A stretch of DNA of 64,000 bases from Aphrophora alni (Eukaryota; Arthropoda; Insecta; Hemiptera; Aphrophoridae), in NCBI GenBank assembly GCA_963513935.1, contig OY740777.1, forward strand, positions 13,441,092-13,505,091, given 5' to 3'. Position 1 is the stretch's first letter; each line of letters begins with the position of its first letter. Of this stretch, positions 8,166 through 58,600 are shown piece after piece. A model generated the notes under the pieces. That model saw nothing but the letters and a program-made list of their open reading frames with translations. It did not search any database and was not told the origin of the DNA. The translations under genes were made by a program, and so were the position numbers.

Positions 8166-8263
8166 TAATTGTGTATATTTAAAGAAAAACTAAGTATACT
8201 TCGTTTGTGCGATAAACTCTAACTATTCACAAATCGCAAGGTAGGCCTATTTGATGAAATATA

Positions 8264-22769: not shown

Positions 22770-23423
22770 ATGGGTATTATTATGAAATCAGACAACTCCG
22801 ATCAGTCGGTACCAAAACAATACGGTATCATACCCGGAGATCCTGTCCAAAACCTTTTTCATCGTCTTCCATATAGCAACCATAAACTTAAGAACCCCTT
22901 TCTGCCTAAACCTGCCTTCTTAGAATACGAACTCAAACAGTCAGCACTCCAAACCATCTATACGGAATTTGTAGAATCCACTTTCGGATCACCAATCCCA
23001 GACGGCGGAAAAAGTGGTGCCGAACACTACTTCCGCCTCCTTCAAGAACATCTGACTGTATGCACACCCATCAGTAACTACGACGAGGAAGTAGAAGCCG
23101 TCCACACCGCAGCCCTTCTTAGAAAACCTCTACATATGAACCCACATGCAACTCCCAAGTTGACTTCCAGAGGGCTATTGAATGTTGAGAAAATTAGAGA
23201 GCCTGGTGAACCACAATGGACTCTCAGTCACGTCAATATCAGGGTTAACGTAGAACTCAAACATAAATCTGCCTCGACTTGCAGTGGCCCAAGTAAGCTC
23301 AACAATCAACCGTCAACAAATGAAATAAACAACGCCTCCCCGAAACAGTTGAAGGTAAACAATGGGAGTGCCATCTCACCTTCGGTCCTATTGACCTCAA
23401 CGTCCCTCGTGGAGTCAAGGTAG
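22770..23423 (+). pseudogene. decayed RNase H-like domain of a non-LTR retrotransposon
   Basis: A 217-codon open frame, the longest non-repetitive one in the window, with GC and codon use clearly unlike the surroundings. Residues 62-114 resemble the RNase HI domain found after the reverse transcriptase in some non-LTR elements: a beta-strand IYTE at 63-66 where active enzymes have an aspartate, a glycine-rich turn (SPIPDGGKSGA, 74-84), a hydrophobic strand, and NYDEEVEAV (103-111) matching the helix with the second catalytic acid (E107 here). The first aspartate is replaced by E66, and the later catalytic D/H region is not recognisable: after about 120 the sequence is Ser/Asn/Pro-rich and probably frame-shifted. 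A short GPIDLNVPRG piece in another frame follows the apparent end (near 23385). Assignment rests on motif resemblance only. Confidence 0.5.
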
Positions 23424-31390: not shown

Positions 31391-32606
31391 GATCCCCTGT
31401 GATTTTTATGTTGGTCCTCTTTTATTTTATGACAGAAAATGAATTAACAGTTTTTCAAGAAAATGGCAAAACATCATGTTTGGATCCTAATGAGCTACAT
31501 TTAATCATTATCGTTAGTAGCGTTTTTGAATGTAGAAATCGTTCCTTACACATAAAGTTTAAAAATAATAATAATAAATGTCTGAAGATAAGAGCAAATA
31601 AACGAACAAAATCAAATTTCAACAAAATCAATCCACCCGTTAGGATTGTAGGATAAACACTTCAAAATGGATATTTTTACGACAAACTGAACATATTCAA
31701 AAGTACGTAATTTTCTGAATGTGTAAAAATAAATTTAAATAATGATTGACTTTTCATAAGGTTTTAAATGAAAAACACGGACTGACAGAAATTGTAGCCT
31801 ATACTTGTAAAATGATTATGAACAAGGAATATTTAAAGAAAGAGAAAGTCTAGAGTGCAAAGTAAAAAAGTACCTGATGAGAACCACCTCATCAGAAATT
31901 ATTCTATCAAAAAGCCGCTGTTTATGCATTCATGCAACGATGGAAGTGCCGGAGATTAAAACGAGACGTGAGGATGGAATATTAATGCCCCCTGCCCTAC
32001 CTTACCTTGTTTTATTGTTTCATCCCTAAAAGCAATTTAGAGTTCATCCCTTGTGACACATACTGCTCATCTATCAATTGAAAGCAATGACTAAATTTTG
32101 AGCGACTCGTAAATAAATTGGAAAATAAATCTTGTTTAATTATGAAAATTAATAAAATTTAGACAATTCAGCGGCAACTATCAAAATGTGAAACTATGGG
32201 TGATGTTTTTTAAGATATCAAAATCATCCCAATGTTTTACGATGAAATGTTGATAGAATATGATGGTTTACACTTAAATAAATGTTCGAAAATATTTCAG
32301 TATTGACCTAGGCCTATTACAATCAGCTAAAGTGCGGAAATGAAATGAAATAATACGGAATAACAAAAAACTTAATTAAAGAATAAAAATACAAACAAAA
32401 CCATTTGTACGACAAAGAAAAACCTAATTAGATTAAAATAATAAAACATTTAATTAATGTAAACAAAAAATCGTACAATTAAGTTCAAAACATTATTAAT
32501 TTTTTTTTTAACAACTTCCCCTGTAGAAAACACACGAGTATGTTTTTAGGCTAAGGGTATTTAATATGTCCTTAACCGAGAACGCTAGTTATCTATCATA
32601 CATACA
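31391..32606. other. AT-rich non-coding DNA
   Basis: The 85-codon plus ORF at 31399-31656 is low-complexity without a domain. A GC-richer spot near 31940-32030 has no identifiable gene. Confidence 0.45.
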
Positions 32607-33390
32607 TAGTGTTACAAAAAACCTTTCAGGACTTTAGGATATGATTCCTTATACAAAGAGGAAGGAAAAATTTCATATGAAGGTATGTCGTAAAACGTTT
32701 AGTTTTCCGTTTATCTGACTGTGTGTGTTTTTTACTTAATACGTTATATATCTTAGGAACCTCTGAAGATATCAACTTCAATCTTAGTACATGTACTACA
32801 TCTAATAAGACCCATTTTGGTATGGAATATCAATTTTATACTTTGTACCATTTCAAAATGGCGGCCATTTAAAAAAATTTAAATCTCAATATTTCAAAAT
32901 CCGTAAATATTACAAAATATTTACAAGGGACAAAAACGTTGATACATTTTATATCCTAAACAACGGTGCATACAATATTAAGATTTCATGATTATTTAGT
33001 TTTTGCAATTTTTCAAACTAGGAACATGAAATTTTGCCATTACTATCACAAAATTCGCATGAAGTCATTTACATAAAATTACTTTTATGTCGCTTGTACA
33101 TATTTTGTAAAATTTACAGATTTTGAGATATTGAAATTTTAAAATTTAAAATGATCGCCATTTTGAAATGATACAAAGTATAAAACTTGATATTCCATAC
33201 CAAAATGGTTCTTATTAGATGTAATATATGTACTAAGTTTGAAGTTGATGTCTTCTGAAGTAAAAAACACATACAGGCAGATAGACGGAAAACTAAACAT
33301 TTTACGACATACCTTCATATGAACTTTTTTCTTCCTTTTTGTATGAGATATCATATCTTAAAGCCCTGAAAGGTTTATTTTATCACACTG
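32607..33390. mobile_element. 784-bp foldback MITE
   Basis: Long inverted arms: TTTCATATGAAGGTATGTCG and CGACATACCTTCATATGAA, CATTTTGGTATGGAATATCA and TGATATTCCATACCAAAATG, AAACCTTTCAGGAC and GCCCTGAAAGGTTT. The right tip CACACTG is followed by TA. The centre has CAAAATGGCGGCCATTTAAA. The 71-codon minus ORF at 33139-33354 is the arm read backwards and is not a gene. Confidence 0.85.
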
Positions 33391-35397
33391 TATACTTGAT
33401 CCACAGACAGAAGCACTAGTTTCACTACTATGCAAAGAAATAATAATAAATAAAACAATAATTTCCAATTAGAACTATTCACCTTATGCATACATCCAAA
33501 CACACTCATACAGAATTGCTATTAAAACAACCACTACTCATCTTAGAACAATAATTTTTCCAGTTATCAGACGATTTTAAACTATGTTTCTATTGACAAT
33601 GAAGAAAAGAGAAAACCATTATTATTTTTTTTTAATTTAATTTTTAAAGATGTATGACGTACAGAGCAGCATTTCTCACTAGGAAATTCAGGCACGTGTC
33701 TTGGGCACAATACAATACAACGGTAACGCTCAACAATATTCGTATAGAGTCCCCTTAATTAATTTAGTTTATTTTATAGAAGATTTTTCTAATTTATAAA
33801 ATTTGGGAAATGGCGTTTCCGAGTTATCGGGAAAGCATTAATAATGGGTCACACCAGGGAAAATATATGTATGAAATGAGTGAGTTACTATATCCTTGAG
33901 CACTCACATTTCAATTGGACTTATGTACAGTCACTTTAATAATTAGAATATAAGTCCTCCATTATTATAATGATTCATTAAGGGCTGGTTTCAACTCCGT
34001 CTTTTATCAGCCATGTCGTTACAATTTCTTTTACAGAACCTGGTTGAGACATTATGTTTTTCAATTGATCAAGGATGTTTTTACAATGATATTGGACAAA
34101 AAAAGGATTAGCTGTGTAATTGACTTAAACATAAACCTGGAAACATTTTAATAGTCGTTTAGCTATCTTAAAAGGGAAGAAAAACGAATGTGCTTGATAT
34201 TTTTATAAATTATGGTTTCATTTGTCAGTTGTTAAATTTTGCAATTTTCTTGTTTTAATAAATTTTTTAATAATAAAAATATTAAAACGTAAAATGACTC
34301 TCTTAAAATGATATCAGTAACAAACGTTATCTTATTTTTTACACATTTATTTTTACATGGATGGAAACGAAAATATTATCAAAGTTCATCTCAAAAACAT
34401 TAAGATGGCAAAAATCCACAAACAATTACATACATCAGCACATAAAAATATAAAACAAAACACCTATTTCAATCTATTTTAACTACAATGAAGGATGTAA
34501 TTTTCCTTCTCGTATTTTTTGATCAGTTGATCCTTCCTTTTAAAAATTTTGTGAATATTAAAAGAGCCAATAATATAATTAAACCAACCCCTTCTGTCAA
34601 AAACTCACTCAATGCTTATCTATTAAACTACCTCAACTATTCATTATTTAACAAAAATCATTATACATAATTCAAATTATTGCCCGTCGTTGAAATTCAT
34701 CATGGCAGCCATTTTGTCTGTTTGATATGTACGAATAAACCGCGTCACATCAAATAACAAATATGATAACGTCAAGCCATCGTATGAAACATAAGCCATA
34801 CAGGATATTCAATTATTTTATTGCCGTAAATTGATATCCCAGAGCTGGATAGATAAATAACTGAATGACATTAATGCCTGGATAGAACAGAATACGTTGG
34901 ATAGATAAAACAAAAACAATATTATAGGCGGAAATTAATTTTCAGAGAGCCTTTTGCTTTAAATAAATTTGTTCCAATCTGAGGATGTTTTGAGGACAGA
35001 AACGGTAATATATTCTCGTCAAGCATTGACGTAGAAATTTCGTCATTATGATTTTTTGAGTTATATAATCACGGTCAAACACATAAACCAATCTAAATTT
35101 AATATTTTGAATAAAGTTCTTTGCTAGCCAAACTATATACGAATAAATTTTCTTTGTCATATTTTGTTGTTTTATTTAATAGGGGGCACTCGAAACGGTT
35201 GAAAGACATAAAAATTGGAATTCTGACCAGGAATAAGTGAATACTTAACCGAGCAAAAACACTTCCAATAAACTTTGAAAATTGAACGCTTTTTTAAAGG
35301 TACAAAAATATCAAATCAATAATTTTATGCTCTGCTCCAAGTGATTCCTTCTAAAATATTTATAACATGTATGTGACTTATATAAAAGCATCAATGA
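33391..35397. other. AT-rich non-coding DNA
   Basis: No gene or long repeat supported. A CATGGCAGCCATTTTGTC phrase at about 34701 is again the YY1/Pho-like core. Around 34840-34915 there are three loose CTGGATAGATAA-like repeats. Confidence 0.45.
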
Positions 35398-35652
35398 AAC
35401 AGTAGTCAGATCGTTTAACCTTCAAACAAAGAGCAATGATAAATTGTTTCTGTGAAGCATTTATGTGAAACAGTAGTCAGATCTTTTACGTATCAAACGA
35501 GGAGAGAGGCTTAATGTTGATAAATTGTTTCTGTGAAGCATTTATGTGAAACAGTAGTCAGATCTTTTACGTATCAAACGAGGAGAGAGGCTTAATGTTG
35601 ATAAATTGTTTCTGGGAAGCATTTATGTGAAACAGTAGTCAGATCTTTTACG
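35398..35652 (+). repeat. left remnant of the 81-bp satellite
   Basis: About three units, the first shortened to about 71 bp and diverged, then two at the 81-bp period (starts at 35471, 35552 and a partial at 35633). Orientation is the same as the main array at 46162-58213. It stops exactly at the edge of the giant palindrome. Confidence 0.9.
35647..35652. repeat. 6-bp target-site duplication, left copy
   Basis: TTTACG immediately before the palindrome's first base. The same six bases follow its last base. Removing the insert and one copy restores CAGATCTTTTACGTATC, exactly the satellite unit. Confidence 0.7.
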
Positions 35653-35683
35653 AGTAGAGTGCCCGTCGGTTGAGGACAAAAAT

Positions 35684-35701
35684 GGTGGGGGTACCCCCAC
35701 C
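35684..35701 (-). terminator. hairpin plus T-run at the left tip (minus strand)
   Basis: GGTGGGGGTACCCCCACC is an 18-bp perfect palindrome. Read on the minus strand it is followed one base later by TTTTT (35682-35678), the first T-run of four or more downstream of the outward-firing tRNA-like promoter at 36124-36195. Confidence 0.45.
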
Positions 35702-36056
35702 CCTCCCCCCTCCCCCCTTCGCCCCTCCCCCTTTGCCCCTCCCCCTCCCCCCTCCCCCTTTGCCTCTCCCCCTTTGCCCCTCCCCCTTTGCCCCTCCCCC
35801 TTTGCCCCTCCCCCACCCCTCCCCCTCCCCTCCCCCTTTGCCCCTCCCCCTTTGCCCCTCCCCCCTTTGCCCCTCCCCCCTTTGCCCCTCCCCCTTTGCC
35901 CCTCCCCTTTAGGCCCCTTCCCTTCCCCATTGGTCCCCCCACCCCTCCCCTTGCCCCTCCCCTTTAGGCCCCTTCCCTTCCCCCATTGGTCCCCCCACCC
36001 CTCCCCTTGCCCCTCCCCTTTAGGCCCCTTCCCTTCCCCCATTGGTCCCCCCACCT
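35702..36056. repeat. C-rich (minus strand G-rich) minisatellite, left arm
   Basis: A polypyrimidine tract of CCCCTCCCCCTTTG-type units, followed by about three longer units of roughly 60 bp containing CATTGGTCCCCCCACCCC. The minus strand has dozens of G3-G6 runs and should form G-quadruplexes. The Pro/Leu- and Gly/Lys-rich ORFs reading through it in several frames are products of the repeat and are not genes. Confidence 0.9.
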
Positions 36057-36110
36057 GTGACGTATTGTTGTCGAGACACACACACGACGTCATACACACA
36101 TGACGTCATA
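36057..36110. promoter_or_regulatory. CRE-like cluster, left arm
   Basis: Within about 55 bp: GTGACGTAT, CGACGTCAT and one perfect palindromic CRE, TGACGTCA (36101-36108). It sits between the tRNA-like promoter and the G-rich tract. ATF/CREB-type binding is predicted by motif only. Confidence 0.4.
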
Positions 36111-36123
36111 CACTTAACTTTTT

Positions 36124-36195
36124 TAATACCGGAGGGATTCGAACCTGTGAAGTTTGGATTTGAAGGCGGACACGCTACCGACTGAGCTATCGTGC
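36124..36195 (-). pseudogene. tRNA-like Pol III promoter, left arm
   Basis: On the minus strand TAGCTCAGTCGG (36189-36178) matches the A-box consensus TRGCNNAGYNGG at every position, and GGTTCGAATCC (36145-36135) is a perfect B box. Spacing of about 32 bp is normal. The acceptor, anticodon and T stems do not pair, so it is not a functional tRNA. It may be a decayed tRNA or a SINE head that keeps its internal promoter. It fires outward, toward the G-rich tract and element tip. Confidence 0.75.
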
Positions 36196-36198
36196 ATA

Positions 36199-36249
36199 GT
36201 ATTACAAGTCGGATAATTAACGCAGTATATAAGCCGCCATGTTGTAACC
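36199..36249. repeat. 51-bp direct repeat, copy 1
   Basis: AGTATTACAAGTCGGATAAT...GCCGCCATGTTGTAACCG, repeated with no visible change at 36479-36531. On the minus strand it leads directly into the tRNA-like promoter. It includes TTATATACTG and a GGCGGC motif. Confidence 0.8.
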
Positions 36250-36478
36250 GCAATAATGTGTTATATATATATAATGTGTTAAGATAGTTAACCTAACCTA
36301 TAAGTGTCCTACAGTTGCCCATCCATAGCCTATCAGCTGTTACAATAATGTGTCATTATATAATGTGTTAAGATAGTTAACCTAAAGTTTCCCACTTTTG
36401 CCCATCCACAGCCAATCAGCTGTTACAATAATGTGTTATATATTTATATAATGTGTTAAGATAGTTAACCTAACCCCA

Positions 36479-36531
36479 TAGTATTACAAGTCGGATAATT
36501 AACGCAGTATATAAGCCGCCATGTTGTAACC
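36479..36531. repeat. 51-bp direct repeat, copy 2
   Basis: Same sequence and orientation as 36199-36249, here bordering the hairpin region at 36565-36638. Equivalent copies exist in the right arm (about 45283-45335 and 45565-45615). Confidence 0.8.
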
Positions 36532-36564
36532 GAACGCCAGAACATTTCGTAGAAGTTCGGACAC

Positions 36565-36638
36565 GAACCCCTTACCGTAAGACTTACCGAGTTTTTCGCG
36601 ACCGCGAAAAACTCGCGTACGTCTTACGGTATGGGTTC
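36565..36638. repeat. 74-bp GC-rich hairpin, left arm
   Basis: GAACCC, ACCGTAAGAC and CGAGTTTTTCGCG on the left pair with CGCGAAAAACTCG, GTCTTACGGT and GGGTTC on the right, leaving only a few unpaired bases in the middle. It is an unusually GC-rich cruciform-capable site inside AT-rich satellite. The ORF spanning it (36499-36684, minus) has no recognised domain. Confidence 0.85.
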
Positions 36639-38614
36639 TGAGTCGTACCTCTAGGTTACTCTGACAACAAATAGTAGTGTCCAAATTGTAATGTGCTTGT
36701 GTTAACCTAACCTATAAGTTTCTGCCTACCACAGCCTATCAGCTGTTACAATAATGTGTTATATATATAATGTGTTATATATAATGTGTTAAGATAGTTA
36801 ACCTAAAGTTTCCTACTTTTACCCATCCACAGCCAATCAGCTGTTACAATAATGTGTTATATATTTATATAATGTGTTATATATGTATATAATGTGTTAA
36901 GATAGTTAATCCAACCTATGTATGAAAAGTTTTTACCTATGTTCACCACAGCCTACTTGTAACAGTTGGTACAATTAATGTGTTATATATTTATATAATG
37001 TGTTATATATGTATATAATGTGTTAAGATAGTTAACCTAACCTATAAGTTTCCTACTATTGCCTATGTTCACCACAGCCTACTTGTAACAGCTGGTACAA
37101 TAATGTGTTATATATTTATATAATGTGTTATATATGTATATAATGTGTTAAGATAGTTAATCCAACCTATGTATGAAAAGTTTTTACCTATGTTCACCAC
37201 AGCCTACTTGTAACAGTTGGTACAATCAATGTGTATTTATATAACGTGTTATATATTTATATAATGTGTTGAGATAGTTAACCTAACCTATAAGTTTCCT
37301 ACTTTTGCCTATGTTCACCACAGCCTACTTGAATCAGCTGGTACAATTAATGTGTTATATATTTATATAATGTGTTAAATATTTATATAATGTGTTATAT
37401 AGTTATATAATGTGTTAAGATAGTTAACCTAACCTAAAGTTTCCTACTTTTGCCTATGTTTACCACAAGTGTCCTACTTTTGAACATCCACAGCCAATCA
37501 GCTGTTACAATAATGTGTTATATATAATGTGTTATATATTTATATAATGTGTTATATAATGTGTTAAGATAGTTAACCTATTAGAGTTTCCTACTTTTTC
37601 CCACCACGGCCTAGGTACATTTAATGTGTATAATGTGTTAAACGTAGTTTCCTCCGTTGTCTACCAGGGTGTAGCACATGTGTTTAAGTATCGTGTTAAA
37701 ATATTGTTAACCTAGACTTAATTCCTACTTTTGCCTATTAACCTAACCTATAAGTGGCCTACTTTTACCCATCCACAGCCAATCAGCTGTTACAATAATG
37801 TGTTATATAATTATATAATGTGTTAAGATAGTTAACCTAAAGTTTCCTACCTTTGCTCATCCACAGCCAATCAGCGGTTCAATTAATGTGTTATATATAT
37901 ATATATATATATATATATAATGTGTTATATATTTATATAATGTGTTAAGATAGTTAACCTAAAGTGTCCTACTTTTACCCATCCACAGCCAATCAGCTGT
38001 TACAATAATGTGTTATATATATAATGTGTTATATATTTATATAATGTGTTAAGATAGTTAACCTATAAGTGTCCTACTTTTACCCATCCACAGCCTATAA
38101 GCTGTTACAATAATGTGTTATATAATTATATAATGTGTTAAGATAGTTAACCTAACCTATAAGTGTCCTACTTTTACCCATCCACAGCCAATCAGCTGGT
38201 ACAATTAATGTGTTATATATATATAATGTGTTATATATTTATATAATGTGTTATATAATGTGTTAAGATAGTTAACCTAACCTATAAGTTTCCTACTTTT
38301 ACCCATCCACAGCCAATCAGCTGTTACAATAATGTGTTATATATATATATAATGTGTTATATATTTATATAATGTGTTAAGATAGTTAACCTAACCTATA
38401 AGTGTCCTACTTTTACCCATCCACAGCCAATCAGCTGTTACAATAATGTGTTAAGATAGTTAACCTATAAGTGTCCTACTTTTATCCATCCACAGCCTAT
38501 CAGCTGTTACAATAATGTGTTATATAATTATATAATGTGTTAAGATAGTTAACCTAACCTATAAGTTTCCTACCTTTGCCTATCCACAGCCAATCAGCTG
38601 GTACAATTAATGTG

Positions 38615-38650
<36 letters not shown>

Positions 38651-39519
38651 TATATATTTATATAATGTGTTATATAATGTGTTAAGATAGTTAACCTAAC
38701 CTATAAGTTTCCTACTTTTACCCATCCACAGCCAATCAGCTGTTACAATAATGTGTTATATATATATATATAATGTGTTATATATTTATATAATGTGTTA
38801 CGATAGTTAACCTAACCTATAAGTGTCCTACTTTTACTCATCCACAGCCAATCAGCTGTTACAATAATGTGTTATACTGTATGTGTCCTACTTTTACCCA
38901 TCCACAGCCTATCAGCTGTTACAATAATGTGTTATATAATTATATAATGTGTTAAGATAGTTAACCTAACCTATAAGTTTCCTACTTTTGCCCATCCACA
39001 GCCAATCAGCTGGTACAATTATTGTGTTATATATTTTATATAATGTGTTAAGATATAATGTGTTAAGATAGTTAACCTAACCTATAAGTTTCCTACATTT
39101 GCCCATCCACAGCCTATCAGCTGGTACAATTAATGTGTTATATATAATGTGTTAAGATATAATGTGTTAAGATAGTTAACCTAACCTATAAGTTTCCTAC
39201 TTTTGCCCATCCACAGCCAATCAGCTGTTACAATAATGTGTTATATACATATATAATGTGTTATATATTTATATAATGTGTTATATAATGTGTTAAGATA
39301 GTTAACCTAACCTATTAGAGTTTCCTACTTTTGCCCACCACGGCCTAGGTACATTTAATGTGTATAATCTGTTAAACGTAGTTTCCTCCGTTGTCTACCA
39401 GGGTGTAGCACATGTTTTTATGTATCGTGTTAAAATATTGTTAACCTAGACTTAATTCCTACTTTTGCCTAAACCTATGCTTACCACAGTCCAAACGGGT
39501 GTTAGTCCGGCCACTATTT

Positions 39520-40135
39520 AACCGAACCGAAATTACCAACCGATTTACCAACCAAATCCAACCGATTTACCAACCGAAATATACTTTTACCAACCGATTT
39601 ACCAACCACAATATACTTTTACCAACCGATTTACCAACCAAAACCAACCGACATTGCAAAGAAATTTAAAAATCCCATTGCAATCCCCTACAAGGTAGAG
39701 TTAGCGGATGTTGAGTTGGCTACTCTACAGGAAAAAATGCCCGAAATACTATTGGAGCTGCAAACCCACGACTTCTTCTACCTTATGGATTTGGACATTA
39801 CACAAGATTTTGTGGGGATCTTTAACAAGCGAGAGATGTGTGAGCATTTACTACGTCATTAAAAATAAATAAATAAATGTTTTAAAATAATATTCTTTGT
39901 AATTTGTTACCTCCATTCCACCAAAACTCTTTTTAGTAGAGAGATAGATATTTGATGTGACCTTGGAATTGCAGCCGAAAACGACACGACCCCCCAACCC
40001 CCATTTTTCCTTTTTAAATATATAACGTCGTAACATTTGTTAGGAACCGATTTACCAAACCGTAGATAAAATTACCAAGATTTGGTTGGTAAATTGGTTG
40101 CAAAAAGTATATTTTGGTTGGTAAATCGGATGGTA
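39520..40135. mobile_element. nested inverted-repeat element, left arm
   Basis: Flanks are clusters of ACCAACCGATTTACCAACC on the left (39530-39650) and their complement GGTTGGTAAATCGG on the right (40062-40130), with ATATACTTTT spacers between repeats on both sides. The tandem-repeat-within-inverted-repeat design resembles foldback termini. The interior (39650-40060) holds the protein tail and a polyadenylation signal. Confidence 0.6.
39650..39862 (+). CDS. unrecognised C-terminal protein tail, left arm
   Basis: About 70 codons in frame to a TAA, followed at once by overlapping AATAAATAAATAAAT polyadenylation signals. Composition is clearly protein-like: a basic start (DIAKKFKNP), then an acidic, hydrophobic helix-prone part (EKMPEILLELQTHDFFYLMD) and a final MCEHLLRH. 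There is no initiator Met before the repeat-encoded region, so it is probably the last exon or 3' end of a captured gene. I do not recognise the family. Its exact copy lies in the right arm. Confidence 0.45.
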   Translation, partial: DIAKKFKNPIAIPYKVELADVELATLQEKMPEILLELQTHDFFYLMDLDITQDFVGIFNKREMCEHLLRH

Positions 40136-40866
40136 TTGGTTAGGTTAGGTTAGGTTAGGTCTGGTTAGGATAGGTTAGGTTAGGTTAAGTCTGGTTAGGA
40201 TAGGTTAGGATAGGTTAGGTTATGTTAGGTTAGGTTAGGATAGGATAGGTTAGGTTAGGTTAGGATAGGTTAGGTTAGGTTAGGATAGGTTGTGTTAGGT
40301 GAGGTTAGGTTAGGTTAGGATAGGTTAGGTTAGGTTAGGTTTTTAGGAGAATGGTTGTTAGGTTAAGTTAGGATAGGATAGGTTAGGTTAGGTTAGGTTA
40401 GGATAGGTTAGGTTAGGTTAGGTCTGGTTAGGATAGGTTAGGTTATGTTAGGTTAGGTTAGGATAGGATAGGTTAGGTTAGGTTAGGATAGGTTAGGTTA
40501 GGATAGGTTATGTTAGGTGAGGTTAGGTTAGGTTAGGATAGGTTAGGTTAGGTTAGGTCTGGTTAGGATGGGTTAGGATAGGTTAGGTTAGGTTAGGATA
40601 GATTAGGTTATGTTAGGTTAGGTTAGGATAGGTTAGGTTAGGTTAGGTTAGGATAGGTTAGGTTAGGTTAGGATAGGTTATGTTAGGTGAGGTTAGGTTA
40701 GATTAGGATAGGTTAGGTTAGGTTAGGTTAGGTTTTTAGGAGAATGGTTGTTAGGTTAGGTTAGGATAGGATAGGTTAGGTTAGGTTAGGTTAGGTTAGG
40801 TTAGGTTAGGATAGGTTATGTTAGGTTAGGTTAGGTTAGGTTAGGATAGGTTAGGTTAGGTTAGGT
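40136..40866. repeat. TTAGG telomere-repeat array, left arm
   Basis: About 730 bp of TTAGG on the plus strand, running toward the palindrome centre, mixed with the variants TTAGGATAGG, GGTCTGG and GTTATG. A GTTTTTAGGAGAATGGTTG spacer interrupts it near 40338 and 40733 and ends it near 40864. Confidence 0.95.
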
Positions 40867-40951
40867 TTTTAGGAGAATGGTTGCCACACGCCCGGGAGAT
40901 AGTAGGGGTGGGACGGAGGTTGGTAGGCGTGTGGCAACCATTCTCCTAAAA
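40867..40951. repeat. palindrome centre with 33-bp spacer
   Basis: GGTTGCCACACGCC (to 40892) pairs with GGCGTGTGGCAACC (from 40926). The unpaired spacer 40893-40925 is G-rich, with GGG, GGGG and GGG runs. Telomere arrays of opposite orientation lie on either side, giving a head-to-head (TTAGG)n-(CCTAA)n arrangement. Confidence 0.9.
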
Positions 40952-41682
40952 ACCTAACCTAACCTAACCTATCCTAACCTAACCTAACCTAACCTAACAT
41001 AACCTATCCTAACCTAACCTAACCTAACCTAACCTAACCTAACCTATCCTATCCTAACCTAACCTAACAACCATTCTCCTAAAAACCTAACCTAACCTAA
41101 CCTAACCTATCCTAATCTAACCTAACCTCACCTAACATAACCTATCCTAACCTAACCTAACCTATCCTAACCTAACCTAACCTAACCTATCCTAACCTAA
41201 CCTAACATAACCTAATCTATCCTAACCTAACCTAACCTATCCTAACCCATCCTAACCAGACCTAACCTAACCTAACCTATCCTAACCTAACCTAACCTCA
41301 CCTAACATAACCTATCCTAACCTAACCTATCCTAACCTAACCTAACCTATCCTATCCTAACCTAACCTAACATAACCTAACCTATCCTAACCAGACCTAA
41401 CCTAACCTAACCTATCCTAACCTAACCTAACCTAACCTATCCTATCCTAACTTAACCTAACAACCATTCTCCTAAAAACCTAACCTAACCTAACCTATCC
41501 TAACCTAACCTAACCTCACCTAACACAACCTATCCTAACCTAACCTAACCTATCCTAACCTAACCTAACCTATCCTATCCTAACCTAACCTAACATAACC
41601 TAACCTATCCTAACCTATCCTAACCAGACTTAACCTAACCTAACCTATCCTAACCAGACCTAACCTAACCTAACCTAACCAA
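40952..41682. repeat. CCTAA telomere-repeat array, right arm
   Basis: Mirror of 40136-40866, reading CCTAA away from the centre, with the same variant units and interspersed CAACCATTCTCCTAAAAAC spacers in the same order. Confidence 0.95.
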
Positions 41683-42298
41683 TACCATCCGATTTACCAA
41701 CCAAAATATACTTTTTGCAACCAATTTACCAACCAAATCTTGGTAATTTTATCTACGGTTTGGTAAATCGGTTCCTAACAAATGTTACGACGTTATATAT
41801 TTAAAAAGGAAAAATGGGGGTTGGGGGGTCGTGTCGTTTTCGGCTGCAATTCCAAGGTCACATCAAATATCTATCTCTCTACTAAAAAGAGTTTTGGTGG
41901 AATGGAGGTAACAAATTACAAAGAATATTATTTTAAAACATTTATTTATTTATTTTTAATGACGTAGTAAATGCTCACACATCTCTCGCTTGTTAAAGAT
42001 CCCCACAAAATCTTGTGTAATGTCCAAATCCATAAGGTAGAAGAAGTCGTGGGTTTGCAGCTCCAATAGTATTTCGGGCATTTTTTCCTGTAGAGTAGCC
42101 AACTCAACATCCGCTAACTCTACCTTGTAGGGGATTGCAATGGGATTTTTAAATTTCTTTGCAATGTCGGTTGGTTTTGGTTGGTAAATCGGTTGGTAAA
42201 AGTATATTGTGGTTGGTAAATCGGTTGGTAAAAGTATATTTCGGTTGGTAAATCGGTTGGATTTGGTTGGTAAATCGGTTGGTAATTTCGGTTCGGTT
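41683..42298. mobile_element. nested inverted-repeat element, right arm
   Basis: Reverse complement of 39520-40135, with the same inverted clusters of GGTTGGTAAATCGG and its complement. Confidence 0.6.
41956..42168 (-). CDS. unrecognised C-terminal protein tail, right arm
   Basis: Exact minus-strand counterpart of 39650-39862, same stop and polyadenylation signal. If transcribed, the two copies would be convergent, both reading toward the palindrome centre. Confidence 0.45.
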   Translation of the reverse strand, partial: DIAKKFKNPIAIPYKVELADVELATLQEKMPEILLELQTHDFFYLMDLDITQDFVGIFNKREMCEHLLRH

Positions 42299-42337
42299 AA
42301 ATAGTGGCCGGACTAACACCCGTTTGGACTGTGGTAA

Positions 42338-43167
42338 GCATAGGTTTAGGCAAAAGTAGGAATTAAGTCTAGGTTAACAATATTTTAACACGATACATAA
42401 AAACATGTGCTACACCCTGGTAGACAACGGAGGAAACTACGTTTAACAGATTATACACATTAAATGTACCTAGGCCGTGGTGGGCAAAAGTAGGAAACTC
42501 TAATAGGTTAGGTTAACTATCTTAACACATTATATAACACATTATATAAATATATAACACATTATATATGTATATAACACATTATTGTAACAGCTGATTG
42601 GCTGTGGATGGGCAAAAGTAGGAAACTTATAGGTTAGGTTAACTATCTTAACACATTATATCTTAACACATTATATATAACACATTAATTGTACCAGCTG
42701 ATAGGCTGTGGATGGGCAAATGTAGGAAACTTATAGGTTAGGTTAACTATCTTAACACATTATATCTTAACACATTATATAAAATATATAACACAATAAT
42801 TGTACCAGCTGATTGGCTGTGGATGGGCAAAAGTAGGAAACTTATAGGTTAGGTTAACTATCTTAACACATTATATAATTATATAACACATTATTGTAAC
42901 AGCTGATAGGCTGTGGATGGGTAAAAGTAGGACACATACAGTATAACACATTATTGTAACAGCTGATTGGCTGTGGATGAGTAAAAGTAGGACACTTATA
43001 GGTTAGGTTAACTATCGTAACACATTATATAAATATATAACACATTATATATATATATATAACACATTATTGTAACAGCTGATTGGCTGTGGATGGGTAA
43101 AAGTAGGAAACTTATAGGTTAGGTTAACTATCTTAACACATTATATAACACATTATATAAATATATA

Positions 43168-43201
<34 letters not shown>

Positions 43202-45564
43202 CACATTAATTGTACCAGCTGATTGGCTGTGGATAGGCAAAGGTAGGAAACTTATAGGTTAGGTTAACTATCTTAACACATTATATAATTATATAACACA
43301 TTATTGTAACAGCTGATAGGCTGTGGATGGATAAAAGTAGGACACTTATAGGTTAACTATCTTAACACATTATTGTAACAGCTGATTGGCTGTGGATGGG
43401 TAAAAGTAGGACACTTATAGGTTAGGTTAACTATCTTAACACATTATATAAATATATAACACATTATATATATATATAACACATTATTGTAACAGCTGAT
43501 TGGCTGTGGATGGGTAAAAGTAGGAAACTTATAGGTTAGGTTAACTATCTTAACACATTATATAACACATTATATAAATATATAACACATTATATATATA
43601 TAACACATTAATTGTACCAGCTGATTGGCTGTGGATGGGTAAAAGTAGGACACTTATAGGTTAGGTTAACTATCTTAACACATTATATAATTATATAACA
43701 CATTATTGTAACAGCTTATAGGCTGTGGATGGGTAAAAGTAGGACACTTATAGGTTAACTATCTTAACACATTATATAAATATATAACACATTATATATA
43801 TAACACATTATTGTAACAGCTGATTGGCTGTGGATGGGTAAAAGTAGGACACTTTAGGTTAACTATCTTAACACATTATATAAATATATAACACATTATA
43901 TATATATATATATATATATATAACACATTAATTGAACCGCTGATTGGCTGTGGATGAGCAAAGGTAGGAAACTTTAGGTTAACTATCTTAACACATTATA
44001 TAATTATATAACACATTATTGTAACAGCTGATTGGCTGTGGATGGGTAAAAGTAGGCCACTTATAGGTTAGGTTAATAGGCAAAAGTAGGAATTAAGTCT
44101 AGGTTAACAATATTTTAACACGATACTTAAACACATGTGCTACACCCTGGTAGACAACGGAGGAAACTACGTTTAACACATTATACACATTAAATGTACC
44201 TAGGCCGTGGTGGGAAAAAGTAGGAAACTCTAATAGGTTAACTATCTTAACACATTATATAACACATTATATAAATATATAACACATTATATATAACACA
44301 TTATTGTAACAGCTGATTGGCTGTGGATGTTCAAAAGTAGGACACTTGTGGTAAACATAGGCAAAAGTAGGAAACTTTAGGTTAGGTTAACTATCTTAAC
44401 ACATTATATAACTATATAACACATTATATAAATATTTAACACATTATATAAATATATAACACATTAATTGTACCAGCTGATTCAAGTAGGCTGTGGTGAA
44501 CATAGGCAAAAGTAGGAAACTTATAGGTTAGGTTAACTATCTCAACACATTATATAAATATATAACACGTTATATAAATACACATTGATTGTACCAACTG
44601 TTACAAGTAGGCTGTGGTGAACATAGGTAAAAACTTTTCATACATAGGTTGGATTAACTATCTTAACACATTATATACATATATAACACATTATATAAAT
44701 ATATAACACATTATTGTACCAGCTGTTACAAGTAGGCTGTGGTGAACATAGGCAATAGTAGGAAACTTATAGGTTAGGTTAACTATCTTAACACATTATA
44801 TACATATATAACACATTATATAAATATATAACACATTAATTGTACCAACTGTTACAAGTAGGCTGTGGTGAACATAGGTAAAAACTTTTCATACATAGGT
44901 TGGATTAACTATCTTAACACATTATATACATATATAACACATTATATAAATATATAACACATTATTGTAACAGCTGATTGGCTGTGGATGGGTAAAAGTA
45001 GGAAACTTTAGGTTAACTATCTTAACACATTATATATAACACATTATATATATAACACATTATTGTAACAGCTGATAGGCTGTGGTAGGCAGAAACTTAT
45101 AGGTTAGGTTAACACAAGCACATTACAATTTGGACACTACTATTTGTTGTCAGAGTAACCTAGAGGTACGACTCAGAACCCATACCGTAAGACGTACGCG
45201 AGTTTTTCGCGGTCGCGAAAAACTCGGTAAGTCTTACGGTAAGGGGTTCGTGTCCGAACTTCTACGAAATGTTCTGGCGTTCGGTTACAACATGGCGGCT
45301 TATATACTGCGTTAATTATCCGACTTGTAATACTATGGGGTTAGGTTAACTATCTTAACACATTATATAAATATATAACACATTATTGTAACAGCTGATT
45401 GGCTGTGGATGGGCAAAAGTGGGAAACTTTAGGTTAACTATCTTAACACATTATATAATGACACATTATTGTAACAGCTGATAGGCTATGGATGGGCAAC
45501 TGTAGGACACTTATAGGTTAGGTTAACTATCTTAACACATTATATATATATAACACATTATTGC
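42338..45564. repeat. CCAAT/AT-rich satellite, right arm
   Basis: Reverse complement of 36250-39480 (GCTGATTGGCTGTGGATGGG blocks here). Total length differs by 4 bp owing to two TA microsatellites. Units and the repeated longer insert occur in mirrored order. Confidence 0.9.
45176..45249. repeat. 74-bp GC-rich hairpin, right arm
   Basis: Mirror copy of 36565-36638 with the same CGAGTTTTTCGCG / CGCGAAAAACTCG stem. Confidence 0.85.
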
Positions 45565-45618
45565 GGTTACAACATGGCGGCTTATATACTGCGTTAATTA
45601 TCCGACTTGTAATACTAT

Positions 45619-45690
45619 GCACGATAGCTCAGTCGGTAGCGTGTCCGCCTTCAAATCCAAACTTCACAGGTTCGAATCCCTCCGGTATTA
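45619..45690 (+). pseudogene. tRNA-like Pol III promoter, right arm
   Basis: A box TAGCTCAGTCGG at 45625-45636 and B box GGTTCGAATCC at 45669-45679, both perfect consensus matches. Stems do not form a tRNA cloverleaf. It reads outward. From here to 46131 there is no plus-strand run of four T, so a Pol III transcript of about 520 nt through the G-rich tract is predicted. Confidence 0.75.
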
Positions 45691-45703
45691 AAAAAGTTAA
45701 GTG

Positions 45704-45757
45704 TATGACGTCATGTGTGTATGACGTCGTGTGTGTGTCTCGACAACAATACGTCAC
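45704..45757. promoter_or_regulatory. CRE-like cluster, right arm
   Basis: Mirror of 36057-36110: a perfect TGACGTCA at 45706-45713, then TGACGTCG and TACGTCAC. Confidence 0.4.
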
Positions 45758-46112
45758 AGGTGGGGGGACCAATGGGGGAAGGGAAGGGGCCTAAAGGGGA
45801 GGGGCAAGGGGAGGGGTGGGGGGACCAATGGGGGAAGGGAAGGGGCCTAAAGGGGAGGGGCAAGGGGAGGGGTGGGGGGACCAATGGGGAAGGGAAGGGG
45901 CCTAAAGGGGAGGGGCAAAGGGGGAGGGGCAAAGGGGGGAGGGGCAAAGGGGGGAGGGGCAAAGGGGGAGGGGCAAAGGGGGAGGGGAGGGGGAGGGGTG
46001 GGGGAGGGGCAAAGGGGGAGGGGCAAAGGGGGAGGGGCAAAGGGGGAGGGGCAAAGGGGGAGGGGGGAGGGGGAGGGGCAAAGGGGGAGGGGCGAAGGGG
46101 GGAGGGGGGAGG
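45758..46112 (+). repeat. G-rich minisatellite, right arm
   Basis: Plus strand reads GGGGAGGGGCAAAGGGGGAG-type units with many G3-G6 runs, preceded by roughly 60-bp units with GGGGGGACCAATGGGG. It is identical to the left arm by inspection except at the partner of 35765 (G at 46049). The apparent Gly-rich ORFs are repeat artefacts. Confidence 0.9.
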
Positions 46113-46130
46113 GGTGGGGGTACCCCCACC
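46113..46130 (+). terminator. hairpin plus T-run at the right tip
   Basis: GGTGGGGGTACCCCCACC (perfect 18-bp palindrome), then A and TTTTT at 46132-46136. This is the first T-run downstream of the Pol III boxes at 45625-45679, so it is a plausible Pol III stop. Confidence 0.45.
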
Positions 46131-46161
46131 ATTTTTGTCCTCAACCGACGGGCACTCTACT

Positions 46162-46167
46162 TTTACG
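46162..46167. repeat. 6-bp target-site duplication, right copy
   Basis: TTTACG directly after the palindrome's last base, partner of 35647-35652. The satellite phase resumes here without any shift. Confidence 0.7.
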
Positions 46168-49100
46168 TATCAAACGAGGAGAGAGGCTTAATGTTGATTA
46201 ATTGTTTCTGGGAAGCATTTATGTAAAACAGTAGTCAGATCTTTTACGTATCAAACGAGTAGAGAGGCTTAATGTTGATAAATTGTTTCTGGGAAGCATT
46301 TATGTGAAACAGTAGTCAGATCCTTTACGTATCAAACGAGGAGAGAGGCTTAATGTTGATAAATTGTTTCTGGGAAGCATTTATGTGAAACAGTAGTCAG
46401 ATCCTTTACGTATCAAACGAGGAGAGACGCTTAATGTTGATAAATTGTTTCTGGGAAGAATTTATGTGAAACAGTAGTCAGATCCTTTACGTATCAAACG
46501 AGGAGAGAGGCTTATTGTTGATCAATTGTTTCTGGGAAGCATTTATGTGAAACAGTAGTCAGATCCTTTACGTATCAAACGAGGAGAGAGGCTTAATGTT
46601 GATAAATTGTTTCTGGGAAGCATTTATGTGAAACAGTATTTAAATCTTTTACGTATCAAACGAGGAGAGAGGCTTAGTGTTGATAAATTGTTTCTGGGAA
46701 GCATTTATATGAAACAGTAGTCAGATCTTTTACGTATCAAACGAGGAGAGAGGCTTAATGTTGATAAATTGTTTCTGGGAAGCATTTATGTAAAACAGTA
46801 GTCAGATCTTTTACGTATCAAACGAGGAGAGAGGCTTAATGTTGATAAATTGTTTCTGGGAAGCATTTATGTGAAACAGTAGTCAGATCCTTTACGTATC
46901 AAACGAGGAGAGAGGCTTAATGTTGATAAATTGTTTCTGGGAAACATTTATGTGAAAAAGTAGTCAGATCCTTTACGTATCAAACGAGGAGAGAGGCTTA
47001 ATGTTGATAAATTGTTTCTGGGAAACATTTATGTGAAACAGTAATCAGATCTTTTACGTATCAAACGAGGAGAGAGGCTTAATGTTGATAAATTGTTTCT
47101 GGGAAACATTTATGTGAAACAGTAATCAGATCTTTTACGTATCAAACGAGGAGAGAGGCTTAATGTTGATAAATTGTTTCTGGGAAACATTTATGTGAAA
47201 CAGTAATCAGATCTTTTACGTATCAAACGAGGAGAGAGGCTTAATGTTGATAAATTGTTTCTGGGAAACATTTATGTGAAACAGTAGTCAGATCTTTTAC
47301 GTATCAAACGAGGAGAGAGGCTTAATGTTGATAAATTGTTTCTGGGAAGCATTTATGTGAAACAGTAGTCAGATCCTTTACGTATCAAACGAGTAGAGAG
47401 GCTTAATGTTGATCAATTGTTTCTAGGAAGCATTTATGTGAAACAGTAGTCAGATCGTTTACGTATCAAACGAGGAGAGAGGCTTAATGTTGATCAATTG
47501 TTTCTGGGAAGCATTTATATGAAACAGTAGTCAGATCCTTTACGTATCAAACGAGTAGAGAGGCTTAATGTTGATCAATTGTTTCTGGGAAGCATTTATG
47601 TGAAACAGTAGTCAGATCTTTTACGTATCAAACGAGTAGAGAGGCTTAATGTTGATAAATTGTTTCTGGGAAGCATTTATGTAAAACAGTAGTCAGATCG
47701 TTTACGTATCAAACGAGGAGAGAGGCTTAATGTTGATCAATTGTTTCTGGGAAGCATTTATGTGAAACAGTAGTCAGATCTTTTACGTATCAAACGAGGA
47801 GAGAGGCTTAATGTTGATTAATTGTTTCTGGGAAGCATTTATGTGAAACAGTAGTCAGATCCTTTACGTATCAAACGAGGAGAGAGGCTTAATGTTGATA
47901 AATTGTTTCTGGGAAGCATTTATGTAAAACAGTAGTAAGATCTTTTACGTATCAAACGAGTAGAGAGGCTTAATGTTGATAAATTGTTTCTGGGAAGCAT
48001 TTATGTGAAACAGTAGTCAGATCCTTTACGTATCAAACGAGGAGAGAGGCTTAATGTTGATAAATTGTTTCTGGGAAGCATTTATGTGAAACAGTAGTCA
48101 GATCCTTTACGTATCAAACGAGGAGAGACGCTTAATGTTGATAAATTGTTTCTGGGAAGCATTTATGTGAAACAGTAGTCAGATCCTTTACGTATCAAAC
48201 GAGGAGAGAGGCTTATTGTTGATCAATTGTTTCTGGGAAGCATTTATATGAAACAGTAGTCAGATCTTTTACGTATCAAACGAGGAGAGAGGCTTAATGT
48301 TGATAAATTGTTTCTGGGAAACATTTATGTGAAACAGTAATCAGATCTTTTACGTATCAAACGAGGAGAGAGGCTTAATGTTGATAAATTGTTTCTGGGA
48401 AACATTTATGTGAAACAGTAATCAGATCTTTTACGTATCAAACGAGGAGAGAGGCTTAATGTTGATAAATTGTTTCTGGGAAACATTTATGTGAAACAGT
48501 AATCAGATCTTTTACGTATCAAACGAGGAGAGAGGCTTAATGTTGATAAATTGTTTCTGGGAAACATTTATGTGAAACAGTAGTCAGATCTTTTACGTAT
48601 CAAACGAGGAGAGAGGCTTAATGTTGATAAATTGTTTCTGGGAAGCATTTATGTGAAACAGTAGTCAGATCCTTTACGTATCAAACGAGTAGAGAGGCTT
48701 AATGTTGATCAATTGTTTCTAGGAAGCATTTATGTGAAACAGTAGTCAGATCGTTTACGTATCAAACGAGGAGAGAGGCTTAATGTTGATCAATTGTTTC
48801 TGGGAAGCATTTATATGAAACAGTAGTCAGATCCTTTACGTATCAAACGAGTAGAGAGGCTTAATGTTGATCAATTGTTTCTGGGAAGCATTTATGTGAA
48901 ACAGTAGTCAGATCTTTTACGTATCAAACGAGTAGAGAGGCTTAATGTTAATAAATTGTTTCTGGGAAGCATTTATGTAAAACAGTAGTCAGATCGTTTA
49001 CGTATCAAACGAGGAGAGAGGCTTAATGTTGATCAATTGTTTCTGGGAAGCATTTATGTGAAACAGTAGTCAGATCTTTTACGTATCAAACGAGGAGAGA

Positions 49101-52100
49101 GGCTTAATGTTGATTAATTGTTTCTGGGAAGCATTTATGTGAAACAGTAGTCAGATCCTTTACGTATCAAACGAGGAGAGAGGCTTAATGTTGATAAATT
49201 GTTTCTGGGAAGCATTTATGTAAAACAGTAGTCAGATCTTTTACGTATCAAACGAGTAGAGAGGCTTAATGTTGATAAATTGTTTCTGGGAAGCATTTAT
49301 GTGAAACAGTAGTCAGATCCTTTACGTATCAAACGAGGAGAGAGGCTTAATGTTGATAAATTGTTTCTGGGAAGCATTTATGTGAAACAGTAGTCAGATC
49401 CTTTACGTATCAAACGAGGAGAGACGCTTAATGTTGATAAATTGTTTCTGGGAAGCATTTATGTGAAACAGTAGTCAGATCCTTTACGTATCAAACGAGG
49501 AGAGAGGCTTATTGTTGATCAATTGTTTCTGGGAAGCATTTATATGAAACAGTAGTCAGATCTTTTACGTATCAAACGAGGAGAGAGGCTTAATGTTGAT
49601 AAATTGTTTCTGGGAAGCATTTATATGAAAGAGTAGTCAGATCTTTTACGTATCAAACGAGGAGAGAGGCTTAATGTTGATAAATTGTTTCTGGGAAACA
49701 TTTATGTGAAACAGTAATCAGATCTTTTACGTATCAAACGAGGAGAGAGGCTTAATGTTGATAAATTGTTTCTGGGAGACATTTATGTGAAACAGTAATC
49801 AGATCTTTTACGTATCAAACGAGGAGAGAGGCTTAATGTTGATAAATTGTTTCTGGGAAACATTTATGTGAAACAGTAGTCAGATCTTTTACGTATCAAA
49901 CGAGGAGAGAGGCTTAATGTTGATAAATTGTTTCTGGGAAGCATTTATGTGAAACAGTAGTCAGATCCTTTACGTATCAAACGAGTAGAGAGGCTTAATG
50001 TTGATCAATTGTTTCTGGGAAGCATTTATGTGAAACAGTAGTCAGATCGTTTACGTATCAAACGAGGAGAGAGGCTTAATGTTGATCAATTGTTTCTGGG
50101 AAGCATTTATATGAAACAGTAGTCAGATCCTTTACGTATCAAACGAGTAGAGAGGCTTAATGTTGATCAATTGTTTCTGGGAAGCATTTATGTGAAACAG
50201 TAGTCAGATCTTTTACGTATCAAACGCGTAGAGAGGCTTAATGTTGATAAATTGTTTCTGGGAAGCATTTATGTAAAACAGTAGTCAGATCGTTTACGTA
50301 TCAAACGAGGAGAGAGGCTTAATGTTGATAAATTGTTTCTGGGAAACATTTATGTGAAACAGTAGCCAGATCGTTTACGTATCAAACGAGGAGAGAGGCT
50401 TAATGTTGATCACTTGTTTCTGGGAAGCATTTATATGAAACAGTAGTCAGATCTTTTACGTATCAAACGAGTAGAGAGGCTTAATGTTGATAAATTGTTT
50501 CTGGGAAGCATTTATGTAAAACAGTAGTCAGATCGTTTACGTATCAAACGAGGAGAGAGGCTTAATGTTGATCAATTGTTTCTGGGAAGCATTTATGTGA
50601 AACAGTAGTCAGATCGTTTACGTATCAAACGAGGAGAGAGGCTTAATGTTGATCAATTGTTTCTGGGAAGCATTTATATGAAACAGTAGTCAGATCCTTT
50701 ACGTATCAAACGAGGAGAGAGGCTTAGTGTTGATAAATTGTTTCTGGGAAGCATTTATATGAAACAGTAGTCAGATCTTTTACGTATCAAACAAGGAGAG
50801 AGGCTTAATGTTGATAAATTGTTTCTGGGAAGCATTTATGTAAAACAGTAGTCAGATCTTTTACGTATCAAACGAGGAGAGAGGCTTAATGTTGATAAAT
50901 TGTTTCTGGGAAGCATTTATGTGAAACAGTAGTCAGATCCTTTACGTATCAAACGAGGAGAGAGGCTTAATGTTGATAAATTGTTTCTGGGAAACATTTA
51001 TGTGAAAAAGTAGTCAGATCTTTTACGTATCAAACGAGGAGAGAGGCTTAATGTTGATAAATTGTTTCTGGGAAACATTTATGTGAAACAGTAATCAGAT
51101 CTTTTACGTATCAAACGAGGAGAGAGGCTTAATGTTGATAAATTGTTTCTGGCAAACATTTATGTGAAACAGTAATCAGATCTTTTACGTATCAAACGAG
51201 GAGAGAGGCTTAATGTTGATAAATTGTTTCTGGGAAACATTTATGTGAAACAGTAATCAGATCTTTTACGTATCAAACGAGGAGAGAGGCTTAATGTTGA
51301 TAAATTGTTTCTGGGAAACATTTATGTGAAACAGTAGTCAGATCTTTTACGTATCAAACGAGGAGAGAGGCTTAATGTTGATAAATTGTTTCTGGGAAGC
51401 ATTTATGTGAAACAGTAGTCAGATCCTTTACGTATCAAACGAGTAGAGAGGCTTAATGTTGATCAATTGTTTCTAGGAAGCATTTATGTGAAACAGTAGT
51501 CAGATCGTTTACGTATCAAACGAGGAGAGAGGCTTAATGTTGATCAATTGTTTCTGGGAAGCATTTATATGAAACAGTAGTCAGATCCTTTACGTATCAA
51601 ACGAGTAGAGAGGCTTAATGTTGATCAATTGTTTCTGGGAAGCATTTATGTGAAACAGTAGTCAGATCTTTTACGTATCAAACGAGTAGAGAGGCTTAAT
51701 GTTGATAAATTGTTTCTGGGAAGCATTTATGTAAAACAGTAGTCAGATCGTTTACGTATCAAACGAGGAGAGAGGCTTAATGTTGATCAATTGTTTCTGG
51801 GAAGCATTTATGTGAAACAGTAGTCAGATCTTTTACGTATCAAACGAGGAGAGAGGCTTAATGTTGATTAATTGTTTCTGGGAAGCATTTATGTGAAACA
51901 GTAGTCAGATCCTTTACGTATCAAACGAGGAGAGAGGCTTAATGTTGATAAATTGTTTCTGGGAAGCATTTATGTAAAACAGTAGTCAGATCTTTTACGT
52001 ATCAAACGAGTAGAGAGGCTTAATGTTGATAAATTGTTTCTGGGAAGCATTTATGTGAAACAGTAGTCAGATCCTTTACGTATCAAACGAGGAGAGAGGC

Positions 52101-58100: not shown

Positions 58101-58213
58101 AAACGAGGAGAGACGCTTAATGTTGATAAATTGTTTCTGGGAAACATTTATGTGAAACAGTAGCCAGATCGTTTACGTATCAAACGAGGAGAGAGGCTTA
58201 ATGTTGATAAATT
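46162..58213 (+). repeat. 81-bp satellite array, about 149 units
   Basis: Unit: CAGTAGTCAGATCTTTTACG, TATCAAACGAGGAGAGAGGC, TTAATGTTGATAAATTGTTT, CTGGGAAGCATTTATGTGAA, A. Units differ at a handful of positions (GATCTTTT/CCTTT/CGTTT; GAGG/GAGT; GATAAATT/GATCAATT; GAAGC/GAAAC; ATGTGAAA/ATATGAAA/ATGTAAAA). Marker variants recur at exact multiples of 81 bp, showing higher-order repeats. Two 11-bp duplications (GTATCAAACGA) occur near 52574 and 52828. There are no long ORFs. The array ends at about 58213 in AT-rich DNA. Confidence 0.97.
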
Positions 58214-58600
58214 ATTGCTGTTTGAAATAAACACCTTCCAGGACTAGAATATAATCATGCACAGTAGGACAAGATATTCAAAAACTCGTTACTTTTCACC
58301 TAATTTAAAAAACATCAATGGATTTGTCATAAAAATTACAAAAATAAGTTGTTCTAGTAAATTGTTTTTGAAATGGTTAATTTTAGAGTTATTTCAATAT
58401 AAAAGATTTGAATGGCCGGCATTTTGAAACGAGTTGAGTTGCAGTAATGAAACTAACATAGGCCTACTAATTGAAACTAACAATAGCAAAAATCCTCACA
58501 AATTTAGTTCAATTCTGCAACGTTTTTTTTAACAATTTTTTTTGTAAAAACATATACTGATGGACAGACGGATGTATTAAGGTAGTTGGCTTCTATGTCA
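58214..58600. mobile_element. decayed foldback fragment
   Basis: Directly follows the satellite. It has AGGACAAGATATTCAAAAAC, ATTTGAATGGCCGGCATTTT followed by GAAACGAG (shared-core type) and TGGACAGACGG, a layout seen inside the foldbacks upstream. Ends are not identifiable. Confidence 0.35.

Follow-up and report, generated by a model that had tools for sequence, protein, structure and literature searches.

To understand how a near-perfect palindrome of more than 10 kb came to lie within satellite DNA of the hemipteran Aphrophora alni, we analysed a 64,000-nucleotide stretch of contig OY740777.1 (G000:C13:13441092-13505091; hereafter the window) and searched the species' own assembly (GCA_963513935.1; 1.699 Gb in 388 contigs) for relatives of the 10,509-bp element at window positions 35653-46161. 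A first, sequence-only reading had described this element as a giant foldback transposable unit. That description was upheld by facing tips, 6-bp duplications and a common hinge at many loci, and we consider it likely that the palindrome is a multi-copy, non-autonomous derivative of Polinton (Maverick) elements, which arose by snap-back, spreads with the help of coding relatives and has its two arms homogenised.

The palindrome and its insertion site

The two arms, 35653-40892 on the forward strand (5,240 bp) and 40926-46161 on the reverse strand (5,236 bp), are reverse complements with 99.9% identity. One substitution (35765 T versus 46049 C) and two TA indels of 2 bp, each within a TA run, are the only differences, and an asymmetric spacer of 33 bp (40893-40925) separates the arms. 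Arm comparison thus confirmed the arm and spacer lengths reported in the sequence-only reading. The spacer is the loop of a hinge (40884-40934), which begins with the 9-bp stem CCACACGCC and, after the loop, ends with GGCGTGTGG. Both outer ends carry the same Polinton-like 17-bp tip, AGTAGAGTGCCCGTCGG (35653-35669, forward strand; 46145-46161, reverse strand), and a search of the window allowing up to 3 mismatches returned two matches, both exact, where 0.01 were expected. Long, internally repetitive inverted repeats make up most of the element, which is the structural mark of a foldback element.

On both sides the palindrome is flanked by an 81-bp satellite running in one orientation (forward strand). 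Approximately 2.7 units lie to the left (35437-35652) and approximately 149 to the right (46160-58220, the range given by Tandem Repeats Finder (TRF), the first 2 bases of which are the element end), and the element therefore lies near the left edge of the array. The hexamer TTTACG adjoins the element at both ends as a target-site duplication (35647-35652 and 46162-46167, forward strand), and joining the flanks with one TTTACG removed gave three consecutive units that agreed with the TRF unit at 81/81, 79/81 and 79/81 bases. The satellite had been said to keep its orientation and phase across the insertion, and this excision bears it out; the argument drawn from it also holds, as neither an inversion nor a folded read would resume the satellite in phase. 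Taken alone, the window is ambiguous between a duplication of 6 bp (with the symmetric tip AGTAGAG...CTCTACT) and one of 7 bp (TTTTACG, with asymmetric tips), and the other copies decide for the 6 bp originally proposed. Within the right-hand array, at 52561-52910, two 92-base intervals occur among the 81-bp units, the first with an 11-base internal duplication.

A family that shares its ends with coding Polintons

At up to 2 mismatches, the tip was found in the assembly at 61 forward and 70 reverse places, and the reversed-pattern control gave 34 and 15; many of the 2-mismatch places may therefore be due to chance. Among the matches listed, facing pairs approximately 10-25 kb apart hold 30 of the 36 exact or 1-mismatch places, a count that takes in the window's own pair. 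The 20 tip pairs that we examined were the 14 other pairs among these 36 places and six 2-mismatch pairs. The sequence-only reading would have been refuted had the tips never occurred elsewhere with 6-bp duplications, but it stood this test, as a 6-bp match between the flanks was present in 19 of the 20 pairs (10/10 in the first batch and 9/10 in the second), one of the 19 being ambiguous in that it lies in a CA repeat where lengths of 2, 4, 6 and 8 all match.

Reading the central 3 kb of the 20 pairs revealed seven palindromes with the same spacer at 0-4 mismatches, so that palindromic elements amount to 8/21 once the window is counted. The remaining centres belonged to six elements of 22.7-24.6 kb, with frames 506-514 codons long, a further five of 12.7-14.0 kb, with frames 254-280 codons long, a 15.1-kb element with a BIR/RING (apoptosis-inhibitor-like) frame and another of only 2.3 kb. 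The 15.1-kb element (L057, G000:C14:13363538-13378654) has the same tips. The flanks of one palindrome (L019/L020, G000:C5:90424424-90436182) resemble the subterminal repeats of another copy, and it may be a nested insertion; another spacer lies approximately 10 kb from its left tip.

Pfam analysis of pieces of the coding copies, rather than of whole elements, identified the proteins that these relatives encode. The C10 copy (23.7 kb) has a type-B DNA polymerase (DNA_pol_B_2, PF03175, E = 4.6e-44), a matrixin peptidase and tail-fibre-like stalks, and the C16 copy (23.5 kb) has the same polymerase domain (PF03175, 3e-25) together with an rve integrase (1.7e-10) and an A32-type ATPase (Pox_A32, 6.7e-07). 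An rve integrase (3.3e-09), a sub-threshold chromodomain and a phospholipase A2-like domain were found in the C2 copy (13.9 kb), and a double-jelly-roll (DJR) capsid domain (PF21738, 4.6e-33) in the C14 copy (12.7 kb). The polymerase pieces of C10 and C16 are 94% identical over 434 residues and their matrixin frames 91% identical; the integrases of C2 and C16 share 80% identity. The C2 copy may itself be deleted, since the 131-codon frame beside its integrase corresponds to no more than the first part of a C10 frame of 377 codons (56% over 117 residues). Inverted repeats measure approximately 2.09 kb (99.1% identity) in the C2 copy and approximately 1.0 kb (98.1%) in the C10 copy.

In a paper on Mavericks (PMC8097293), PolB, integrase, ATPase and double-jelly-roll capsid are given as the hallmark Polinton/Maverick genes, and intact vertebrate Mavericks are described as having inverted repeats of 46-1,447 bp, 6-bp duplications and ends of the types (AGT)2//(ACT)2, (AG)3//(CT)3 or (AC)3A//T(GT)3. 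The AGTAGA end found here is a near match, one base off the (AGT)2 end in that account (PMC8097293). Since the same tips bound copies with Polinton/Maverick genes, we take the palindromes to be non-autonomous, foldback-shaped Polinton derivatives.

As judged by alignment, the ends of the palindromes follow those of some coding copies. Over its outer 900 bp the window element shares 99.0-99.4% identity with the ends of the C2 (integrase) and C10 (PolB) copies, and 87-98% with those of five other palindromes (at most 98.0%), counting aligned bases with gaps excluded. With gaps counted (BLAST), three of the four coding ends match at 90-95% identity across the outer 0.65-0.8 kb; the fourth (L104) gives a split match with an outermost piece of 78%. 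Tips that continue TTGAGGACAAAAATG and tips that continue TTTGGCACAAAAATG are both found among palindromes as well as among coding copies. Tips of a third group, in which the first bases are followed by CATGGCGGCTG or a similar sequence, came only from non-palindromic copies, including C16 and the C14 capsid copy. Such tracking of coding copies is expected if the same enzymes must recognise the ends, or if ends are exchanged.

Arm homogenisation, the hinge and arm content

The high identity of the window's arms had been attributed to recent formation or to arm-to-arm conversion. We compared a 0.5-kb arm segment in 25 two-armed copies of the 28 taken up, excluding L081 (spacer at the edge) and L075 and L090 (one arm missing). 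Arms belonging to one copy differed on average by 0.074%, and different copies by 1.13%. With the arms polarised by the asymmetric spacer, same-side and cross-side differences between copies were equal (0.01129 each), so that the arms do not divide into left and right lineages. Among 33 variable columns, the minor base was common to both arms in 67 copy-cells and different in 8, a degree of sharing that was matched by none of 20,000 re-pairings in a permutation test. Four copies, including the window, were identical in the segment and two others were identical to each other, and there are a few copies (e.g. L077 and L086) in which one arm is closer to another copy than to its own partner arm. 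Over their whole length, the arms of five further palindromes (5.5-6.35 kb) show within-copy identities of 99.50-99.93%. On these comparisons the arms are homogenised within each element. Because the palindromic form is common to copies approximately 1.1% apart while own arms are approximately 0.07% apart, homogenisation is favoured over recent formation; of the two earlier proposals, a young age of the window palindrome would not by itself account for these figures, and repeated exchange between arms does. The route would be gene conversion or copying through the hairpin.

A search of the assembly for the spacer at up to 3 mismatches gave 84 places, and its reversed-pattern control gave none. 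We read 85 hinges, comprising 82 of the 84 spacer places and three 4-mismatch places; the two left out were L109 (C4:58595397), which was studied apart, and the window, whose palindrome was already established. The sequence was palindromic across 95 nt per side at >85% identity in 69 hinges and not in the other 16. Among these 16, 15 leave the arm at most 16 nt from the spacer (P ~8e-11 compared with a uniform distribution over 95 nt), in a survey that is blind to breaks within the spacer or >95 nt away. Two of the broken hinges (L155 and L156), 2.3 kb apart, have one common break and are probably a single event. The separately studied L109 is a 5.7-kb element with the spacer approximately 0.9 kb from one tip and one arm mostly missing, and it keeps both tips and the 6-bp duplication. 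Since one-armed copies break at the hinge, this point looks fragile, which is what one would expect in a long palindrome.

We had entertained L090, in which a single arm is followed by other DNA after GGCGT, as an unfolded progenitor, but the existence of 16 such non-palindromic hinges with mostly different partners led us to reject this idea and to read L090 as a product of breakage. Two pairs of spacers in the same orientation, G000:C4:113968555/113973804 (5.2 kb apart) and C7:81270871/81273175 (2.3 kb apart), are perhaps tandem or recombinant products.

From tip to hinge, each arm consists of the tip, a C-rich tract, a tRNA-like stretch, subterminal repeats, the segment with a 70-codon frame, a GGTTA array and the hinge. 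The C-rich tract (35707-36055, forward strand; mirror ~45759-46107) has 72% G+C and is built of 14- and 56-bp repeats. The tRNA-like stretch (36116-36215) lies on the reverse strand, pointing toward the tip, and has matches to the A-box (36179-36189) and B-box (36136-36145) patterns; Rfam gave no tRNA match in it at E<=1, and neither Rfam nor ARAGORN detected a tRNA anywhere in the window. Subterminal tandem repeats occupy approximately 3 kb (36251-39295, forward strand) and include 18 copies of CACAGCCAATCAGCTG per arm at up to 1 mismatch, all on a single strand. The 70-codon frame (39650-39859, forward strand; mirror 41959-42168) ends in a stop followed by AATAAA repeats and sits inside a small inverted repeat (39540-39640 / 40079-40130). 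A degenerate GGTTA (TTAGG-type) array (40138-40867, forward strand; mirror 40951-41680) then runs into the hinge; repeats of this type would fit an arthropod host.

All frames of at least 100 codons in the window element are low-complexity ones within the C-rich tract, apart from a 118-codon frame that contains the 70-codon one. Among the frames scanned, those of 118 and 70 codons, no mobility gene was recognised, and none for a polymerase, integrase, ATPase or capsid. The 118-codon frame had no significant match in PHROGs or Pfam. The 70-codon frame had no Pfam match at E<=1, only weak matches in PHROGs (best E 0.34) and the PDB (best E 1.7), and a poor single-sequence fold, with a mean predicted local distance difference test score (pLDDT) of 45; in viral contigs, 7 pattern matches yielded 0 confirmed relatives. 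Within the family, tblastn returned 49 arm matches to this frame in 28 copies (56 arms), of which 38 covered almost the whole frame without a stop and 11 were partial; 28 of the 38 lack one residue that is present in the window. Viral contigs gave no match to the tip or to one subterminal, one repeat and one satellite motif. A hinge motif had a single match, in a contig that looked unrelated. Genome contigs gave one tip match, from an acidobacterial soil genome, which was taken as chance.

Elsewhere in the window, two diverged hairpin-like or inverted-repeat elements with different tips lie at 32602-33393 and 8258-9070 (76% and 84% arm identity, respectively). A 217-codon frame at 22770-23420 (forward strand), without a Pfam match at E<=1, is perhaps part of a host gene, and a separate 22-bp tandem array occupies the left window edge (1-588).

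Origin of the palindrome and alternatives

The window element has the 6-bp duplication and the AGT-type end of an autonomous Polinton, and we file it as a non-autonomous derivative rather than a Polinton proper because no PolB, integrase or capsid frame was recognised in it. We propose that the element was founded when a single strand, displaced from a molecule of Polinton descent, folded back into the hairpin CCACACGCC / GGCGTGTGG with its 33-nt loop and copied its own arm, giving a palindrome that probably arose once, as the hinge is common to 80-odd copies. Snap-back at a short stem would explain why the symmetry is exact, the loop asymmetric and the end sequence duplicated. Since then, single strands have probably folded on themselves, with arm mismatches repaired or copied over, so that the arms stayed alike. 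The palindrome most likely moves as a parasite of coding Polintons in the same genome, whose integrase would insert it, leaving the 6-bp duplication, and whose protein-primed DNA polymerase would copy it from the tips. Snap-back is a known failure of protein-primed replicons, as in the hairpin derivatives of yeast linear plasmids. For chromosomes, fold-back priming at hairpins is described in two papers (PMC10622511 and PMC7467729).

A further possibility, which we put forward tentatively and hold to be rather doubtful, is that the palindromes are defective-interfering or satellite-like parasites of polintoviruses, that is, self-complementary, hairpin-replicating DNAs of 11-13 kb that would remake one arm off the other in each cycle, relying on the protein-primed polymerase and the integrase, and maybe the particles, of a helper. 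Core loss would provide an alternative origin, with a Polinton of very long terminal inverted repeats losing its middle and the 33-bp spacer being the remnant. Deletion is a common source of non-autonomous elements, and the repeats of the C2 and C10 copies are long (approximately 2.09 and 1.0 kb). However, core loss would need both of its breakpoints to lie no more than 33 bp from where two equal arms end internally; the inner arm is absent from the coding repeats sampled, and the hinge is a clean stem-loop, all of which make such a loss an unlikely source.

Very long, internally tandem-repetitive inverted repeats with little or no coding content are also found in Galileo and Tetris, and a Mutator- or P-type foldback transposon might merely resemble Polintons in its ends. 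The duplications are described as 7 bp in Galileo and 8-10 bp in Tetris, but are 6 bp here; moreover, the relatives of the palindrome encode Polinton-type proteins and no P- or Mutator-type transposase, and its ends agree at 99.0-99.4% with two copies that carry an rve integrase and a type-B polymerase, respectively. An ordinary foldback transposon, of which the FB elements are further examples, is thus highly improbable. The near identity of the window's arms, with one substitution and two microsatellite steps between them, is also what an assembly or sequencing artefact from fold-back reads would produce. After such a read, however, the satellite would not pick up again in phase and with a 6-bp duplication, the same hinge recurs at many loci which, where read, have flanks, lengths and duplications of their own, and copies differ from each other while their own arms agree; an artefact is therefore hardly credible.

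Several observations count against the origin by snap-back and spread with Polinton enzymes that we favour. The sole exception among the 20 tip pairs, the C11 palindrome (L049/L050), has unlike tips and no duplication. The capsid copy (C14) and one of the two polymerase copies (C16) carry the third tip group, which was unseen in palindromes, and the outer arms of the palindromes are as low as 81.5% alike, pointing to a mixed history of ends. Apart from a short repeat, the coding pieces sampled contained nothing of the inner arm (~39643-40892, with the open frame, the GGTTA array and the hinge). Read polishing from both arms could exaggerate homogenisation. Finally, the element is known here from sequence, from which its transposition and replication are deduced.

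Among known systems, the palindrome resembles Polintons/Mavericks in its AGTAG-initial ends, 6-bp duplications and long inverted repeats, and differs from them in being nearly all inverted repeat and in lacking any recognised gene for a polymerase, integrase, ATPase or capsid. Derivatives of yeast pGKL1 and snap-back adenovirus molecules are palindromic or hairpin deletion derivatives of protein-primed replicons; they too are gene-poor, helper-dependent inverted duplications of one end of a linear replicon, whereas the palindromes described here are chromosomally integrated at many places with duplications, and their replication is a matter of deduction. No description of a palindromic or non-autonomous Polinton was found among the records listed from the literature searched, which consisted of titles and the starts of abstracts, without most subscription papers and without Repbase.

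Long perfect palindromes are usually unstable in chromosomes, yet one palindromic form persists here at dozens of loci with its arms kept alike. Protein-primed copying predicts snap-back products of such a shape, and the palindromes are thus a natural test of Polinton replication; if the parasite idea were true, they would represent a hairpin-replicating class of non-autonomous Polintons. Our results suggest that Polintons can have gene-less passengers, and the broken copies clustered at the hinge make palindrome breakage in the germ line measurable.

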